Assembly (NCBI GenBank): GCA_029778565.1
Contig: JAKOQC010000379.1
Location: forward strand, 1-52,704
Reading direction: 5' to 3'
DNA from: a bacterium
GTDB taxonomy: Bacteria > Patescibacteriota > Saccharimonadia > CAILAD01 > BJGX01
Length of the DNA stretch: 52,704 bases
Below are positions 5,052 through 44,603 of the stretch, piece by piece. Each line of letters begins with the position of its first letter. Within the stretch, counting starts at the first letter, position 1. The position numbers and the translations under genes were made by a program. Under the pieces are notes generated by a model, which was not told where the DNA came from, did not search any database, and saw only the letters and a program-made list of their open reading frames with translations.

Positions 5052-5903
5052 TTACCGCACTATCCACTGCCCGGCGCCCATGTTGCGGATTTTACCGGTA
5101 ATTTCCATCAGACTAAGTATGCTGGCTATTTGCTGAGCACTAATATTACTCTGCTCTATTAGATCATGGGTAGTGTTTACTCCATCATTTAGTAGTTCTA
5201 ATATCCTTGCTTCTTCTTTACTATCTGCTTTAACAGTTTTGGGTGCCAACTTAGGGCTTACCAACTCTAGCTCGGCAAGAATATCTACCGCATCACAGAC
5301 GGGTTTGGCACCAGTTTTTAATAAATTGTTGGGGCCAGCACTACGTGGGCTATCTATGTTGCCAGGCACTGCCATTACGAGGCGGTTATTGGTAATGCCA
5401 AAATTAGCGGTAATCAGGCTACCACTACTAGCATCGGCCTCGGTAACTACTACTGCTAAGCTAAGGCCGGCAATAATACGGTTTCTGGCTGGAAAATTAA
5501 AGCGTTGAGTATTGGTACCTACCGCATATTCGCTAAGAATGGCGCCATCTTTTTTGAGGATGTCTTTGGCTAAGCTCCGGTTGGCGGCCGGGTAAATAGT
5601 ATCGAGTGGTGTGCCAAGCACGGCTACTACCTGGCCACCCGATTCTAGTGCGGCTTGGTGTGCAATAGCATCTATGCCATAGGCCAAGCCACTAACCAGG
5701 CAGATGCCAGCTCTGGCGAGATCGGCAGCTATTCTATAGGTTGTTTTGCGCCCATACTCGGTGGGTCTACGTGTACCCACGATAGCCACCATTGGCAAGT
5801 CTGGGATTGTACCCAAACAGTAGAGTTCTTTGGGTGGTGAAGAAATATCACGTAAAAGTTCGGGATAATACTTGCTTTTATATTTTATGTGTTGTATATT
5901 CAT
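5052..5903 (-). CDS. dprA: DNA-processing protein DprA (start re-assigned to MNIQHIKYKSKYYPELL)
   Basis: Rossmann core VAIVGTRRPTEYGRKTTYRIAADLARAGICLVSGLAYGIDAIAHQAAL, FPARNRIIAGLS, C-terminal winged helix. Confidence 0.93.
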   Translation of the reverse strand: MNIQHIKYKSKYYPELLRDISSPPKELYCLGTIPDLPMVAIVGTRRPTEYGRKTTYRIAADLARAGICLVSGLAYGIDAIAHQAALESGGQVVAVLGTPLDTIYPAANRSLAKDILKKDGAILSEYAVGTNTQRFNFPARNRIIAGLSLAVVVTEADASSGSLITANFGITNNRLVMAVPGNIDSPRSAGPNNLLKTGAKPVCDAVDILAELELVSPKLAPKTVKADSKEEARILELLNDGVNTTHDLIEQSNISAQQIASILSLMEITGKIRNMGAGQWIVR

Positions 5904-5971
5904 ATTTCTGGCTACTCCTGATAAGAATAAGCGCATTAAAAATAACAGCAAATAATATCAAGTAAAAATAC

Positions 5972-6000
5972 TTGACAAATAAGCATAGGCGTGATACAAT
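5972..6000 (+). promoter_or_regulatory. Near-consensus sigma70 promoter for ncRNA
   Basis: TTGACA (5972-5977), 17-nt spacer, TACAAT (5995-6000). Confidence 0.85.
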
Positions 6001-6006
6001 ACACGC

Positions 6007-6230
6007 GTAAATTAAAAGTTCAATATTCCTTTCAATTTGTCAAAGGGAATAGTCTGCTAGCTGAGGCTAAGATCTAAAACTCACCCTCCTTTTAGATTTC
6101 TCACTAGCAGACTATTCCCTTTAACGCCACGGTCTATGAATGATTTATGAGACCGATAAAACCAGTTTAGGGGGTGTTAAAGGGTGTTACAAGCAGATCT
6201 GTTCGATTCGTACGGCAGGTCTGCTTTTAA
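6007..6230 (+). ncRNA. Orphan structured small RNA, family unknown
   Basis: Strong promoter upstream; perfect 19-bp hairpin 6042-6060/6104-6122; inner stem 6072-6079/6090-6097 with C-rich loop CTCACCCTCC; CGGTCT/AGACCG hairpin; terminator-like hairpin 6192-6225 followed by a short U-run; no credible ORF. Confidence 0.75.
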
Positions 6231-6354: not shown

Positions 6355-6576
6355 TTATTTAGTACGGATAACTTCATTAAGCTCTGTCAGCTCGCCCTCA
6401 ATAAACTTGCTCAAACGAAGACGGAAGTCGTGGCTCGATTCACCACGCGTTACACCAGGAACACCGTAACGCTCAGCCATCTCTACAAGTACGTGTTCGG
6501 CTGGTCTATGTTCTAGTTTATGCAAATCGAGCATGCCTTGGTTAAAAAATGCTTGCATTTCTGCTAAGGTACTCAT
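6355..6576 (-). CDS. Small hypothetical protein, possible paralogue of the upstream ORF
   Basis: ORF overlapping the preceding ORF by 4 nt (ATGA-type coupling); shared pattern GV.G.TR.....R with the neighbour. Confidence 0.7.
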   Translation of the reverse strand: MSTLAEMQAFFNQGMLDLHKLEHRPAEHVLVEMAERYGVPGVTRGESSHDFRLRLSKFIEGELTELNEVIRTK

Positions 6577-6839
6577 TTTGTTACCACACTTTCATCTGAA
6601 TTTTGTGCTGCAATCATTTCATGAGCAGTAACCATTTTACTATCAATTAGACTTAATAATTGTTTGCAGAGTATCCTTAAACCATGCCTTGTCTCGCCAG
6701 TGTCGACACCATGATTTCTGGCAATAGCATTAATAGTATCCATTCTTTCTAGATGGTTTTGTAAAGCTACTATTTCTAACAATCTTAGTCTTTGTAGAGT
6801 AAGCTTGTTGAAATACGTCTGTTGAGGTGATGGTTCCAT
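6573..6839 (-). CDS. Small hypothetical protein (start re-assigned to MEPSPQQ)
   Basis: ATG at 6839 preceded by AGGAGG; helical ORF. Confidence 0.7.
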   Translation of the reverse strand: MEPSPQQTYFNKLTLQRLRLLEIVALQNHLERMDTINAIARNHGVDTGETRHGLRILCKQLLSLIDSKMVTAHEMIAAQNSDESVVTK

Positions 6840-6898
6840 AAGGCCTCCTAGGTACAAGATTTAGCTAAAGTATATCTCAAGTATATAAATAAGTAAAA

Positions 6899-20034: not shown

Positions 20035-20068
20035 GTCTATTAGTTAGCACAAGCACTATATGTAGTGA
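20021..20068 (+). promoter_or_regulatory. Two NrdR-box-like 16-mers upstream of nrdA
   Basis: AAGCCATATATAGTGT (20021-20036) and GCACTATATGTAGTGA (20053-20068), 32 bp start to start, compared with canonical ACACTATATATAGTGT pairs. Confidence 0.75.
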
Positions 20069-20104
20069 TAGTCACAACAATTAATAAGTCTTTTTGGAGG
20101 GTAA

Positions 20105-22834
20105 ATGACTTTTACAAATATAAAAAAACGCAATGGACAGGTGGTAGATTTTGACCGCGAGCGAATAGAATTAGCTATTTCAAAAGCTAATTCGACTGTC
20201 GATGAAGAAATTCCTGCCGATGGCATTACAGCTTTGGTCGATAATGTTATCTCACACCTCGAAAGTGTTACCCCCGATGGTGTGCCAGAAGTAGAAACCA
20301 TCCAGGACTTAGTTGAACAAGAGTTGATGCGTGCAGACTATTTTAAAACTGCTCGCTGTTATATTCTGTATCGTGAAGAACATAAAGCTTTGCGCGAACT
20401 TGAAGCCGAAAGAAGTGCAGAAAAACTTGAACATAATGCTCTTAAGGTTACTCAACCCGATGGCAGTGTTGAGAACTTCAGCTACTCTCGCCTTATTACC
20501 GATTTAGTTGAAACAAGTAGCGGGCTTGAAACTGATATAGATATTGATGAGTTGGCTCAACTGGCTAAAAGTAATCTTTACGATGGTATTACAGTAGATG
20601 AGTTGCAAGAAGCATTGGTAATGGCCGCCAAAACAAATATCGAAAAAGATCCGGCCTACTCTACATTAGCTGCTCGTCTCCTTCTTCGTAAGGTGTACCG
20701 CGAAGTGTTGGGTGCTGATAGCGAAACCGAGCTAAAAGAAGCATACAAATCTACATTTGTAAATTTCGTTAAAGATAACGTTAAAGGTAATCGTCTGGAC
20801 AAACGTCTTTTAGAGTTTGACTTAGAGGCGTTGGCTGATTATATGCAACCAGAACGCGACCATGAATTTGATTATATGGGGCTTGATATGTTGCATGATC
20901 GCTATTTTATGCAAATAGAAGGTCGCGGTACTCGCCTAGAAGCGCCACAGATTTTTTGGATGCGGATTGCTATGGGTCTTTCGGTACTTGAGAAAAAGAC
21001 TGATAAAGATGCATCAGCTAAGAAGTTTTACGATGTTCTTTCTACGTTACGTTATGTACCCTCAACTCCTACCCTATTTCATTCTGGCACAACCTTTGCG
21101 CAGCTTAGTTCGTGCTTTTTAAATACCGTAGAAGACGATCTTAAGCACATATTTAAAGTGTATCTCGATACTGCTCTAATGAGTAAATTTTCTGGTGGCA
21201 TTGCGACCGACTGGACAAATATTCGAGCTACAGGCTCACTAATTAAAAAAGTGAATATTCCATCGCAAGGTGTTATTCCCTTCTTAAAGATTGCCAACGA
21301 TACTACTGTAGCTATTAGCCGTTCTGGTAAGCGTAAGGGTGCAACGTGTGTGTATCTCGAAACATGGCATCTAGATATTGAAGACTTTCTAGAGTTGCGC
21401 AAAAATACTGGCGATGAGCGCCGCCGCACCCACGATATGAATACCGCCAATTGGATTCCAGACCTCTTTATGAAAAGAGTCGAAGCTAATGCTGAGTGGA
21501 CGCTCTTTTCGCCAAATGAGGTACCCGAACTACATCATCTTTACGGCAAAGAATTTGAGAAGAAATATGAAGAATACGAAAAACTAGCTGACGAAGGCAA
21601 AATAGAAATGTTTCGCCGTATTCCAGCCAGCCAGCTATGGCGTAAGATGCTGACTATGCTTTTTGAAACCGGTCATCCATGGGTAACCTTTAAAGATCCA
21701 TGTAATGTGCGTAGTCCGCAAGATCACGTTGGTGTTATTCACAACTCAAACCTCTGTACCGAAATTACCCTTAATAATTCAAAAGAAGAAACTGCTGTGT
21801 GTAATCTTGGTTCGGTTAATCTTGGTCGGCACATTGTGGATGGTAAGCTCGACCAAAAACTTATGGAAGACACTGTTACAACAGCTATGCGTATGCTTGA
21901 TAATGTTATTGATATTAATTACTACACTACCAAAGAATGTGAAGTATCAAATATGCGCCATCGCCCAGTTGGCCTGGGTATAATGGGCTTTGCTGATGCA
22001 CTCTTTATGCTTAATATTCCTTTCAATTCAGAAGAAGCTGTCGCCTTTGGTGATGAATCAATGGAGCTGGTGAGCTATTACGCAATTCTTGGTTCTAGTC
22101 AGTTAGCGAAAGAAAAAGGTAAATACAAGAGCTATAAGGGTAGTAAATGGGATCGCGGTTTATTACCAGTTGATACTCTCGACCTACTCGAACAAGAACG
22201 TGGCCAAAAAATAGACGTAAAACGCCGCGGTAAGCTTAATTGGAAACCGGTGCGTGATCATGTCAAAAAATATGGTATGCGTAACTCTAACACCATGGCT
22301 ATCGCACCAACTGCATCTATTAGTAACATTTCTGGATGTTACCCTTGTATTGAGCCGATTTATAAAAACCTATATGTTAAATCTAATATGAGTGGTGACT
22401 TTACGGTAATTAATAGTTACCTAATTGAAGACCTTAAGAAGCTCGATATGTGGAATGAAGAGATGCTTAAAAAAATTAAATTCCATGATGGCTCTATTCA
22501 GAAAATTACTGAAATACCACAAGAGATTCGCGCTAAATACCAAGAAGTGTTTGAGATAGATCCAGAATGGTTGGTTAAAATAGCTGCCCACAGAGGAAAA
22601 TGGATAGACCAAAGCCAAAGTCTAAATATCTTTGTGCAGGGTGTCTCTGGCAAGAAGTTGAGTGATATTTATACCTATGCCTGGAAGACCGGATTAAAAA
22701 CCACCTACTACTTGCGCTCGCTAGCTGCTAGTCAGGTAGAAAAATCTACTGTAGACACTGCAGAGTTTGGATCGACTCACAAACGAGAATTTGCCACAGT
22801 TGCCGAAACAGCACCGCAAAAAAGTAACGAATAA
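20105..22834 (+). CDS. nrdA: Ribonucleoside-diphosphate reductase alpha subunit (class I), ATP-cone containing
   Basis: ATP-cone N-terminus, SSCFLNTVEDD, NSNLCTEITLNN...AVCNLGSVNLG, MRNSNTMAIAPTASISNISG; SD TTGGAGG. Confidence 0.97.
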   Translation: MTFTNIKKRNGQVVDFDRERIELAISKANSTVDEEIPADGITALVDNVISHLESVTPDGVPEVETIQDLVEQELMRADYFKTARCYILYREEHKALRELEAERSAEKLEHNALKVTQPDGSVENFSYSRLITDLVETSSGLETDIDIDELAQLAKSNLYDGITVDELQEALVMAAKTNIEKDPAYSTLAARLLLRKVYREVLGADSETELKEAYKSTFVNFVKDNVKGNRLDKRLLEFDLEALADYMQPERDHEFDYMGLDMLHDRYFMQIEGRGTRLEAPQIFWMRIAMGLSVLEKKTDKDASAKKFYDVLSTLRYVPSTPTLFHSGTTFAQLSSCFLNTVEDDLKHIFKVYLDTALMSKFSGGIATDWTNIRATGSLIKKVNIPSQGVIPFLKIANDTTVAISRSGKRKGATCVYLETWHLDIEDFLELRKNTGDERRRTHDMNTANWIPDLFMKRVEANAEWTLFSPNEVPELHHLYGKEFEKKYEEYEKLADEGKIEMFRRIPASQLWRKMLTMLFETGHPWVTFKDPCNVRSPQDHVGVIHNSNLCTEITLNNSKEETAVCNLGSVNLGRHIVDGKLDQKLMEDTVTTAMRMLDNVIDINYYTTKECEVSNMRHRPVGLGIMGFADALFMLNIPFNSEEAVAFGDESMELVSYYAILGSSQLAKEKGKYKSYKGSKWDRGLLPVDTLDLLEQERGQKIDVKRRGKLNWKPVRDHVKKYGMRNSNTMAIAPTASISNISGCYPCIEPIYKNLYVKSNMSGDFTVINSYLIEDLKKLDMWNEEMLKKIKFHDGSIQKITEIPQEIRAKYQEVFEIDPEWLVKIAAHRGKWIDQSQSLNIFVQGVSGKKLSDIYTYAWKTGLKTTYYLRSLAASQVEKSTVDTAEFGSTHKREFATVAETAPQKSNE

Positions 22835-22863: not shown

Positions 22864-23898
22864 ATGCCAGTTAAAATGACCAAAGTAAGACCTGATGTAA
22901 ATAAGCGTCGTATAATTAATGGCGAGGATGCCGATGTTATTCAGCTACACCCAATGAAGCACAGTTTTGCTTGGGATGCCTATCTAGCTGGTAATGCCAA
23001 TCACTGGTTACCAACCGAAATTGCTATGCAAGACGATATTGAGCTCTGGAAGTCTCCACGACTCTCTGATGACGAACGACTGGCATTTAAGACGGCGCTT
23101 GGGTTTTTTACTACTGCCGATAGTATTGCAGCCAATAACTTAGTATTAGCCTTTTACAAGCACGTAACGAGCCCAGAATGTAGAATGTATCTACTAAGAC
23201 AAGCCTTCGAAGAAGCTATCCATACTCATGCGTATCAATACATTGTAGAAAGTCTCGGTATTGACGGTGGCGAGGTCTTTAATATGTACCGCGAGAACAC
23301 TGCTCATAACTCGAAAGCCAATTTTATTCTTGGTTTTAATGAGGGTATATTTGATGACAATTTTCATACTGGCACATTCGAAAATGATCAAAAGTTTCTC
23401 GAAAACCTATGTGTATTCTCGCTAATTTTAGAAGGAATATTCTTCTATAGTAGTTTTGCGGTAATATTTGGGTTTCAGCGTCAAAACAAACTAGTCGGTT
23501 CTGCCGAACAAATTCAATACATTATGCGTGACGAGTCTCAGCATCTTAACTTTGGCATTAATATGATTAATGCTATTAAGGAAGAACAGCCAGAACTTTG
23601 GACAGATGAATTTCAGAAAAGAATTATCAATCTAGTAAAAGAAGCTGCAAAACTCGAGTATAGTTATGCACAACAAGTATTTCCAAAAGGAATATTTGGT
23701 ATGAATGCCGATGGATTTAAGCAATATATAGAGCACATCGCTGATAGACGATTAAGTGCTGTTGGCTTGCCTAAGCAATTTAATGTAAAAAATCCTTTCC
23801 CATGGATGAGCGAAGCAGTAGATCTTAGCAAAGAAAAGAACTTCTTCGAAACGCGGGTTACCGAGTATCAGACCGGCGGTACTCTCAGCTGGGACTAA
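22864..23898 (+). CDS. nrdB: Ribonucleoside-diphosphate reductase beta subunit (class I)
   Basis: Diiron helix motifs (FTTADSIAANNL, EEAIHTHAYQYI, DESQHLNFG), C-terminus FFETRVTEYQTGGTLSWD. Confidence 0.97.
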   Translation: MPVKMTKVRPDVNKRRIINGEDADVIQLHPMKHSFAWDAYLAGNANHWLPTEIAMQDDIELWKSPRLSDDERLAFKTALGFFTTADSIAANNLVLAFYKHVTSPECRMYLLRQAFEEAIHTHAYQYIVESLGIDGGEVFNMYRENTAHNSKANFILGFNEGIFDDNFHTGTFENDQKFLENLCVFSLILEGIFFYSSFAVIFGFQRQNKLVGSAEQIQYIMRDESQHLNFGINMINAIKEEQPELWTDEFQKRIINLVKEAAKLEYSYAQQVFPKGIFGMNADGFKQYIEHIADRRLSAVGLPKQFNVKNPFPWMSEAVDLSKEKNFFETRVTEYQTGGTLSWD

Positions 23899-40410: not shown

Positions 40411-40440
40411 AAAACAACTACCCTTAGGTAGTTGTTTTGT
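40411..40440. terminator. Bidirectional terminator between rpmA and pyrG
   Basis: CAAAACAACTACCcttaGGTAGTTGTTTTG. Confidence 0.8.
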
Positions 40441-42070
40441 TGAATATGGGTTTTGCATTGGTTTTTGTTCTGTTATAGTGTGTGGCTGCCCCAATAAAGT
40501 CACGAAATAGTGGGTGTGCTCGATTTGGGCGAGATTTAAATTCTGGATGAAACTGACTAGCTACAAAAAATGGATGATTAGCAAGCTCGACAATTTCTAC
40601 TAACTTACCGTCTGGACTAAGACCACTAATTACTAAACCGTTGTCTTGCAAGATTTCGCGGTAGTCATTGTTAAATTCATATCGGTGACGATGACGTTCT
40701 ACAATATTTTGTGTGCCATATGCTAAATAGGCACGCGATTTTTTTGTTAATTTAGTTGGATAATCACCTAGTCGCATTGTACCGCCCATGTCTACACCCA
40801 CCTGATCTGGCATTATGTGCACAACTGGATGTACTACATCTGGATCTATTTCTGCTGAATTGGCAGATTTTGTTTTTAATACTTCGCGAGCAAACTCGAT
40901 AACTGCCACTTGCATACCCAAACAAATGCCAAGGTAAGGAACGTTATTCTTTCTTGCATATCGAGCAGCTGCAATTTTACCTTCTACCCCGCGACTGCCA
41001 AAGCCACCTGGCACCAAAATACCCTGCACTTCAGCTAGCTCTTTTTCGATGTAGTCAACATTTTCGGCGTTTATCCAGCGTATCATTACCTTTATATTAT
41101 GATGCCAGCCTGCTGCTCGTAGTGATTCAAAAATACTCATATAGGTATCTTCGTGGTTCATATATTTTGCAATCACACCAATATTAACTGTTTTATCTAC
41201 AGACTTAATTTTATTAACTAGATTACTCCAGTCAGTCAGCCTGGCTTTACGTTTGGGTAACTTTAATTGTTTGCAAATATAATCAGCTATGCCGGTTTCT
41301 TCCATGCGCAATGGCACTTCATAGACTGTCTCGGCAGTCTCGAGCCCCACTATCGCCTCTTTGGCTACATCGCAGTACAAACTCATCTTATCAAGCCCTT
41401 CGGCATTGAGAGGGTGGTCAGAACGAACAAATAATACATTTGGTGATATCCCTGCCTCGCGCAAATCTCGCACGCTATTTTGCGCCGGCTTGGTCTTAAT
41501 TTCTTTGCTAGCTTGCAGGTATGGCAAAAAGACTAGGTGAGCATACAGAACATTTTCTTCTCCCACAAGTCGTTTCATCTGTCGAATCGCCTCTATAAAA
41601 GCCATAGCTTCATAGTCACCAACGGTACCACCAATTTCGACTATATGAATATCAAATTTTTTACCTGCTTCAATAATTCGCCGGTGTATTTCAGAGGTGA
41701 CATGGGGAATAATTTGCACGGTTTTACCAAGGTAAAGGCCCTTACGCTCATTTGCAATTACTTGCGAATATATTTGTCCCGAAATTGTCGAGCTGCTACG
41801 CTCAAGTTCTTTATCGATAAAGCGCTCATAATGGCCAAGGTCTAAATCGGTCTCTGCACCATCTTTAGTAACAAATACCTCACCATGTTCAGCTGGGTTA
41901 AGGGTGCCAGCATCGGTATTAAGGTAAGGGTCGCATTTTTGCATATTAACAGAAAAGCCTCGGGCTTTTAAAATTTTACCGAGACTTGCCGCGGTGATAC
42001 CTTTACCGAGTCCTGAAACTACCCCACCGGTTACAAAAATATATTTTGTCTTGGTTTTTTTTGTTGCCAT
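40424..42070 (-). CDS. pyrG: CTP synthase
   Basis: KYIFVTGGVVSGLGKGITAASLGKILKARG; glutaminase LGICLGMQ. Confidence 0.98.
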   Translation of the reverse strand: MATKKTKTKYIFVTGGVVSGLGKGITAASLGKILKARGFSVNMQKCDPYLNTDAGTLNPAEHGEVFVTKDGAETDLDLGHYERFIDKELERSSSTISGQIYSQVIANERKGLYLGKTVQIIPHVTSEIHRRIIEAGKKFDIHIVEIGGTVGDYEAMAFIEAIRQMKRLVGEENVLYAHLVFLPYLQASKEIKTKPAQNSVRDLREAGISPNVLFVRSDHPLNAEGLDKMSLYCDVAKEAIVGLETAETVYEVPLRMEETGIADYICKQLKLPKRKARLTDWSNLVNKIKSVDKTVNIGVIAKYMNHEDTYMSIFESLRAAGWHHNIKVMIRWINAENVDYIEKELAEVQGILVPGGFGSRGVEGKIAAARYARKNNVPYLGICLGMQVAVIEFAREVLKTKSANSAEIDPDVVHPVVHIMPDQVGVDMGGTMRLGDYPTKLTKKSRAYLAYGTQNIVERHRHRYEFNNDYREILQDNGLVISGLSPDGKLVEIVELANHPFFVASQFHPEFKSRPNRAHPLFRDFIGAATHYNRTKTNAKPIFNKTTT

Positions 42071-43439: not shown

Positions 43440-44582
43440 CTAGAAGTGAATAAACTGCAAGCCGGCTATCGAAACATCACTTGTTGAATATTGACCATCC
43501 CAATTCGCATTATATTGACTTACATGAACTTTATTTCCATTGACCGACTCAACATACATTGCGTGTCCAAAACTACCTGCCATAGAAATCGCAACATCAC
43601 CTGGCCGCGGATTGCCATCTACAGGTATACCTGCAGCGCGAGCATTGCTTGGCCACTGATAAGCATTCCCCCTACCGCCCCAATAAGGCATATGACGTCC
43701 GCTTGAAGCTACTTTCCAAGCTGTATAGCTTACACACTGACGTTGATACATACCCCATGGGTCAGCAATACTATTCGGGAAAGGTGCTCCTGCCCAGGGA
43801 TAACCGCCACTTCCGCCATACCGCACATTACTTGAGAATGAGGCAATTATTGCTGCTTGCTGGCGACGCAGATCTGCAATTTTTGCATTGTCTTGATCGG
43901 CTAACTTACGGTAATTTGCTTCATCACCCTGAGTTTGCGCTAATAGGTTTTGTTGCTCGGTTTTTTTTGCATTAATTCCAGCAACTACACTTGCCTGTTG
44001 ATTTGATTGCGCATCTAGCTGATCCTTTTTATTTGCAAGTTCTTTTTTTAAACTATCAATTTTCTTTAGATTATCATCAATTTTTTGTTTTATCGCGCTC
44101 AAATACTCCTGCTGTGCCACAAAATCACTTAAATCCCGCGATGAGGCCACCACCTCTATTGGTGAAACATCACCCTGTTTATAGATAGTGCGCAAATTGT
44201 CTTTTAAGATTGCTTTCTGATGGTCTAATTCTCTATTAGCCGCTTCAATTCGTACTTGAGTCTGTTTTATTTCAAGATTAGTAAGATCTAGTTGATGTTG
44301 AGCAGCGTCTATATCAGCTTGAATACTAGCAATTTTACCCTTTAATGTATTAGCATCGGCTGCTTTTGCATCTGCAGCAGCTTGTGTAGCTTGTACTTGT
44401 TTCTTTAGTGCGGCAATCTGTGCATCAAATTGATCAGCCTTGGCTGGTCGGGAAGAAATTGTAAAAACAGACAACAATACAGCAATCATTCCAATTGCTG
44501 CTAAAGCTTTTGTTTTGGTAATTTTTACGTGATTTTTAGAAGTTTTCTGTAATTTTGTGTGAATAGTCACTATATCTGTCAC
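43440..44582 (-). CDS. PcsB/CwlO-like coiled-coil murein hydrolase with CHAP domain
   Basis: N-terminal export segment, long coiled coil, then QRQCVSYTAWKVASSG...GRGNAYQWPSNARAAG...PRPGDVAISMAGSFGHAMYVESV; downstream of ftsEX. Start codon uncertain (GTG at 44582 abuts the SD; GTG at 44570 possible). Confidence 0.9.
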   Translation of the reverse strand: MTDIVTIHTKLQKTSKNHVKITKTKALAAIGMIAVLLSVFTISSRPAKADQFDAQIAALKKQVQATQAAADAKAADANTLKGKIASIQADIDAAQHQLDLTNLEIKQTQVRIEAANRELDHQKAILKDNLRTIYKQGDVSPIEVVASSRDLSDFVAQQEYLSAIKQKIDDNLKKIDSLKKELANKKDQLDAQSNQQASVVAGINAKKTEQQNLLAQTQGDEANYRKLADQDNAKIADLRRQQAAIIASFSSNVRYGGSGGYPWAGAPFPNSIADPWGMYQRQCVSYTAWKVASSGRHMPYWGGRGNAYQWPSNARAAGIPVDGNPRPGDVAISMAGSFGHAMYVESVNGNKVHVSQYNANWDGQYSTSDVSIAGLQFIHF

Positions 44583-44603
44583 CCTCCTTTGACATCAAGT
44601 TAC

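Follow-up and report, generated by a model that had tools for sequence, protein, structure and literature searches.

A Patescibacteria RNA family with a constant C-rich loop and candidate targets in nucleotide reduction and cell wall cutting

We find that an RNA gene next to dprA, within the 52.7-kb stretch of Saccharimonadia DNA analysed here (the window), belongs to what sequence comparison identifies as a real family of structured RNAs. At a probability of roughly 60%, we read it as a stand-alone, trans-acting sRNA of Patescibacteria whose C-rich loop masks the ribosome-binding sites of a few mRNAs. The sRNA would be transcribed from its own promoter and end at its own terminator, and its hairpin P2 would display an unvarying C-rich loop with the core CCCUCC (UCACCCUCCUU in the source family). 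Resembling the 16S anti-Shine-Dalgarno with an extra C, this loop is predicted to base-pair with GGAGGGU(GA) where ribosomes bind the mRNAs of nrdA, a small CxxC peptide and a PcsB-like peptidoglycan hydrolase, possibly along with a few more. Ribosomes would thereby be kept from the site and translation repressed, so that a growth signal would govern both wall cutting and the supply of dNTPs; the signal and the direction of regulation are guesses on our part. Since CCCUCC fits the ribosome-binding sites of growth genes (nrdA, pcsB), the RNA probably regulates growth and division. Most members of the very large group Patescibacteria are uncultured; a covarying RNA family that several classes of this group share, and that combines an unchanging loop with few predicted targets, would make post-transcriptional control directly testable there, and the predicted functions, nucleotide reduction and wall cutting, touch on how these ultra-small episymbionts limit their growth.

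A stand-alone RNA gene beside dprA

The RNA gene lies at about 6007-6228 on the forward strand, between the divergent dprA and a small ORF (6573-6857, reverse strand). Family labels such as f1 and f2, used here and below, are the anonymous ones of the genome dataset searched.

5052-5951, reverse strand: dprA, the divergent neighbour (NCBIfam TIGR00732)
5972-6000, forward strand: near-consensus promoter, read directly, with TTGACA (5972-5977), a 17-nt spacer with an extended -10 TG, and TACAAT (5995-6000)
6007-6228, forward strand: predicted RNA of ~220 nt, its start placed from the -10 box and its end from the terminator T-run
6191-6228, forward strand: intrinsic terminator hairpin and T-run, from direct reading and the fold, kept in f1 relatives

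Direct reading bears out the promoter described in an earlier note on this DNA. It is the sole match to TTGACA-N16-18-TANAAT in the window (0.19 expected), and all six letters of TTGACA are invariant across 16 aligned relatives. The terminator-like hairpin of that note is likewise present in the fold, with a stem at about 6191-6201/6216-6226 and a 14-nt loop, followed by the T-run; a pattern scanner did not call it because the scanner permits loops of 3-8 only. As dprA and the small ORF are both on the opposite strand, the RNA constitutes its own transcription unit, with a promoter and terminator independent of the neighbouring genes, as in trans-acting sRNAs that mask Shine-Dalgarno sites. 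Regulation of dprA in cis was rejected because dprA is transcribed away from the RNA. A coding function was rejected as well: no conserved reading frame runs through the RNA stretch in the alignment of relatives, and alignment gaps of 1, 2 and 4 nt break the frame and therefore argue against a coding region, in agreement with the earlier judgement that no credible ORF is present. The terminator loop (6202-6215) shows a peculiarity of its own, in that UUCGA...UACGG is kept in f1 relatives while the stem varies, exceeding the needs of a plain terminator.

Fold, family and two helices sharing a strand

The features of the fold are as follows.

6042-6060, forward strand: P1 5′ strand AAAGGGAATAGTCTGCTAG, supported by covariation, its lower part (6042-6051) conformer-specific
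6104-6122, forward strand: P1 3′ strand, pairing perfectly with 6042-6060
6072-6097, forward strand: hairpin P2 (6072-6079/6090-6097), presenting the loop CUCACCCUCC (6080-6089)
6117-6128, forward strand: shared strand CCCUUUAACGCC, whose partner is either 6042-6047 (lower P1) or 6173-6184 (P3)
6130-6155, forward strand: hairpin H3 (6130-6135/6150-6155), inside P3, supported by covariation
6173-6184, forward strand: P3 3′ strand GGUGUUAAAGGG

The region has a folding energy of -79.8 kcal/mol, compared to -48.8 ± 4.7 kcal/mol for shuffled sequences (z = -6.6; 0 of 200 shuffles as low). Both the perfect 19-bp pairing and the inner 8-bp stem with its loop had been pointed out previously and were found exactly as described, the loop reading CTCACCCTCC. 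Within this loop, UCACCCUCCUU is invariant in 16 relatives while the stems vary, and the core CCCUCC recurs in every lineage seen. With no C-rich loop in either H3 or the terminator hairpin, it is the single one in the whole RNA. Two further pairings were discarded. A conserved pseudoknot between the loop and an internal GGGGG run was rejected because the run reads GCGGA in G013 and GGTGG in G014. Pairing of a 5′ leader CCTTT with the main stem, proposed in the earlier note one base off its actual position (6028-6032), is not kept among the 16 aligned relatives.

That note had regarded the RNA as an orphan, a view that does not hold: at least ten Saccharimonadia families have relatives of it, as do other Patescibacteria classes. 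A DNA search found the RNA in 17 of 147 relatives, one of which (G050) has only a promoter-side fragment, and the 16-sequence core has two-sided changes at 11 of 34 pairs, compared to 5.0 ± 1.3 in shuffles. A covariance model (R1) detected it in 28 of 393 Saccharimonadia genomes, and a rebuild on 23 sequences (R2), the kind of model from relatives that had been suggested at the outset, in 29 of 393. In the R2 alignment, which had been fitted to the tested structure and so favours it, two-sided changes occur at 25 of 37 pairs (98 such cells versus 27.5 when shuffled), with a covariation score of 0.400 compared to 0.191 ± 0.010 in shuffles; sliding the strands gives no comparable signal. R2 also recovers loci outside its training set (G028, E = 3.6e-12; G474, E = 9.9e-10). 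Outside Saccharimonadia it finds the RNA in f62, f72, f83 and f129, which belong to other Patescibacteria classes. These distant copies show the same hairpin (e.g. ACCUUAACCACCCUCCUUAAGG) behind a TTGACA-type promoter, mostly with an adjoining dprA. Weak matches in f7 (G205) and f25 (G113) retain both P3 and the CCCUCC loop, carried on longer arms, beside dprA/topA, whereas a match in G092 is probably due to chance because the stretch has neither promoter nor P3. Overall, dprA or topA adjoins the RNA in nearly all relatives.

Which of the helices define the fold? The earlier note had built the structure around the unbroken 19-bp stem and mentioned the complementarity of CCCTTTAAC and GTTAAAGGG as an alternative. 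That alternative is real and extends further than described, comprising 12 bp including G-U between 6117-6128 and 6173-6184, and this helix (P3) is universal, being present in 22 of 22 lineages tested. P3 strands pair at an average of -17.8 kcal/mol with their own partners, compared to -13.8 when swapped between lineages (0 of 20000 permutations). Families f1, f3, f4, f72, f83 and f129 have a strong lower P1, which is weak or missing elsewhere (f2, f6, f7, f8, f11, f14); where present, it too prefers its own partners (-9.0 versus -6.1 swapped; 0 of 20000 permutations). G013 has a disrupted lower P1 alongside a perfect 12-bp P3 helix with compensating changes. With P3 in all lineages and lower P1 missing from several, the comparison assigns P3 to the core fold and makes the perfect 19-bp stem a lineage-specific feature that competes with it.

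Because lower P1 and P3 draw on one common strand and covariation supports each of them, two conformers of the RNA are likely, in support of what the earlier note had considered possible. At any one time, the 3′ arm of the main stem can pair with just one of its two conserved partners, and the RNA may therefore switch between two folds; the competition may equally reflect a folding path in which P1 forms first and P3 later, the sequence being compatible with either. In the strongest version of a switch, the RNA would act mainly via its own fold, with a signal selecting lower P1 or P3 and the loop being one of its outputs. The shared strand and the covariation of both helices would fit such a bistable device, but in the six families named above lower P1 is weak or missing, so that a switch could not be universal, and apart from the loop we saw no conserved unpaired core, nor a ligand pocket. 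We consider this version improbable.

Comparison with known RNAs

The Rfam covariance search that the earlier note had proposed yielded no known family: against Rfam 15, nothing in the window reached the gathering threshold and at E ≤ 10 there were only below-threshold, mostly microRNA-type matches, while six relatives searched at E ≤ 1 again gave below-threshold matches only. In particular, there was no match over the RNA to 6S, SRP, RNase P or tmRNA (E ≤ 10 for the window, E ≤ 1 for five relatives), a tmRNA match of 8.1 bits falling on the promoter and not on the RNA, which agrees with the initial dismissal of RNase P, tmRNA and SRP RNA. Likewise, 6S RNA resembles the present RNA in length, strong own promoter and long-stem hairpin, but the consensus structure has neither the large open bubble between an end-closing stem and an apical stem (the bubble had already been judged missing from the single sequence) nor any closing stem of the two ends, and an Rfam match is lacking. 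What had been proposed as a new regulatory RNA thus is a new structured RNA, given no Rfam match, strong covariation and a conserved promoter, and its regulatory role is probable.

Small RNAs with C-rich unpaired motifs offer closer parallels. In Gram-positive bacteria, RsaE/RoxS and LhrC use such a motif to pair with Shine-Dalgarno sequences and repress translation. The present RNA shares a C-rich unpaired motif complementary to Shine-Dalgarno sequences, whereas RsaE/RoxS and LhrC have UCCC/CUCC-type motifs in other scaffolds, and no Rfam match to them was found here. In Mycobacterium abscessus (Actinobacteria), the 6C RNA B11 has two C-rich loops and represses eccB4, which has a six-G run in its 5′ UTR (PMC10470900). 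The likeness lies in a small stand-alone RNA that opposes a C-rich hairpin loop to G-rich 5′ UTR sequences (in our case by predicted complementarity). However, rather than two hairpins each with a C-rich loop, the RNA described here has one such loop, CACCCUCC, which tops a long stem in two parts, in addition to P3 and H3; it also comes from another lineage, and at E ≤ 10 Rfam gave no match to an sRNA family of this type. PmaR of Agrobacterium combines a long stem, an accessible C-rich loop and peptidoglycan-related targets, and mostly activates, via sites that are mostly off the ribosome-binding site (PMC6234868). All three structural and functional traits have counterparts here, the peptidoglycan-related targets as candidates; the mostly activating mode and the position of the sites set PmaR apart, and sequence relation was assessed by Rfam search. 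Taken together, our RNA most likely represents a family of its own that works like the C-rich-loop sRNAs. Our literature search, with most subscription papers and all supplements outside its reach, found neither an RNA of such kind nor any other described regulatory RNA in Patescibacteria, although a large RNA survey, for example that of the human microbiome (PMC8040213), may have listed it earlier.

Loop complement and candidate targets

Which mRNAs might the loop address? In the genomes examined, the 16S tail is the usual GGATCACCTCCTTT, which the loop resembles with one extra C. An altered 16S anti-Shine-Dalgarno as the cause of GGAGGG was hence rejected, and the extra G of the target sites matches the RNA and not the ribosome; a letter matched by the RNA and unneeded by the ribosome argues for selection by the RNA. 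Two candidate targets lie in the window.

20096-20104, forward strand: candidate site GGAGGGTAA before nrdA (ATG at 20105), with GGAGGG and loop pairing
20105-22834, forward strand: nrdA, ribonucleoside-diphosphate reductase alpha with ATP-cone (an orthologue), followed by nrdB at 22864-23898
44579-44590, reverse strand: candidate site AAAGGAGGGTGA before the pcsB-like gene, a 12-nt complement of the loop region
43440-44570, reverse strand: pcsB-like gene for a secreted coiled-coil and CHAP peptidoglycan hydrolase (Pfam CHAP, E = 1e-13)

GGAGGG occurs at 2 of 47 gene starts in the window, those of nrdA and pcsB only. When the 47 leaders are ranked by pairing with the loop, pcsB comes first (-21.2 kcal/mol), pyrG second and nrdA third (-14.0 kcal/mol); for 1.3% of random 50-nt stretches, pairing with the loop is as good as for the nrdA leader. 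The loop complement AAGGAGGGTGA has two further sites in its own genome, both of them ribosome-binding sites (of the pcsB-like gene in the window and of a 32-aa peptide gene). Across 15 genomes, AGGAGGGTGA has 29 non-self sites, at least 22 of them at gene starts and 18 in four families: pcsB-like, nrdA, the CxxC peptide and a secreted SYAPGAGSNNPAAF-type protein. The control AGGAGGHTGA, covering the other three letters together, has 25 sites in 13 genomes; the 20 that were read are mostly inside ORFs and show no repeated family. An unpaired, conserved loop complementary to the ribosome-binding sites of recurrent genes is a trait that the RNA shares with trans-acting sRNAs masking Shine-Dalgarno sites.

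Conservation at the individual genes points the same way. GGAGGG is found in 13 of 13 nrdA orthologues examined (3-9 nt ahead of the start codon, the flanks varying), in 11 of 11 CxxC peptide genes (two paralogues are without it) and at pcsB in 20 of 22 assessable RNA-bearing genomes (G013 and G026 are without, G004 is uncertain), counts that are not independent since orthologous leaders share ancestry, and to which ordinary translation contributes since GGAGGG contains the normal Shine-Dalgarno GGAGG. Among five genomes without detected RNA, none has GGAGGG at pcsB, although two have GAGGGT, and these genomes may hold divergent copies of the RNA (f7 has one, in G205). In distant families, only pcsB keeps GGAGGG at its start, the following letters often mismatch the loop, and general AGGAGGGTG sites are mostly inside ORFs, with no concentration at gene starts and no common set.

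This weaker target set in distant families is one reason to ask whether the RNA might be a housekeeping ribonucleoprotein RNA (6S-, SRP- or ribosome-associated-like), in which CCCUCC binds a protein or the ribosome and its fit to GGAGGG simply follows from resembling the anti-Shine-Dalgarno. Such a role would suit an RNA that is widespread in Patescibacteria and has a strong promoter and a loop of extreme invariance. We nevertheless deem it rather unlikely, for it leaves unexplained why the same genes keep GGAGGG and not the GGAGGT preferred by the 16S tail, and the RNA has neither the Rfam matches nor the end-closing stem and open bubble discussed above. Alternatively, the loop could act positively on its targets, e.g., by making leaders accessible or shielding the mRNA 5′ end. 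A number of pcsB leaders appear very short, GGAGGG lying near the likely transcript start with, in some, a -10-like box 12-25 nt before it, and PmaR provides a precedent for activation by a C-rich loop (PMC6234868). The complement, however, coincides with the ribosome-binding site, and pairing there normally prevents initiation; positive control appears as improbable to us as the fold-driven switch.

Masking by a trans-acting sRNA remains the preferred reading. It might be carried further, into a tentative scheme which we hold to be possible rather than probable: a bistable, dprA-linked mimic of the anti-Shine-Dalgarno, spread across Patescibacteria classes, would jointly silence the minority of leadered genes that have GGAGGG, those for dNTP synthesis, wall hydrolysis and the small CxxC peptide, while genes that are leaderless or have ordinary sites go on. 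Many other genes in the window look leaderless or have weak sites.

Several observations accompany these loci. The nrdA leaders (20060-20104 in the window, and those of relatives) contain NrdR-box-like palindromes, e.g. acactatatacagaca, and the reductase may thus be under both transcriptional and RNA control. In two pcsB leaders (L215 of G009 and L217 of G011), no well-placed ATG, GTG or TTG follows GGAGGGTG; an in-frame ATT is present, possibly a rare start codon. A peptide of 32-44 aa ending in CPIDPxELxECEACQ (L240-L250; in the source genome at G000:C343 18503-18592, reverse strand) is kept in 11 genomes and matches nothing in Pfam or NCBIfam. The pyrG leader AAGGGGAGAGGTGAA (gene at 40424-42070, reverse strand), which ranks second in the window for pairing with the loop, has an ordinary site that pairs well with 16S rRNA, too. 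A metallopeptidase-like gene with a HEISHA motif (L031, L113, L126) has AGGAGGGTG at its start in f1, f8 and f11 and may be another target. Finally, many genes in the window have a TATAAT-like box ~6-12 nt before the ATG and no Shine-Dalgarno sequence, as expected for leaderless mRNAs.
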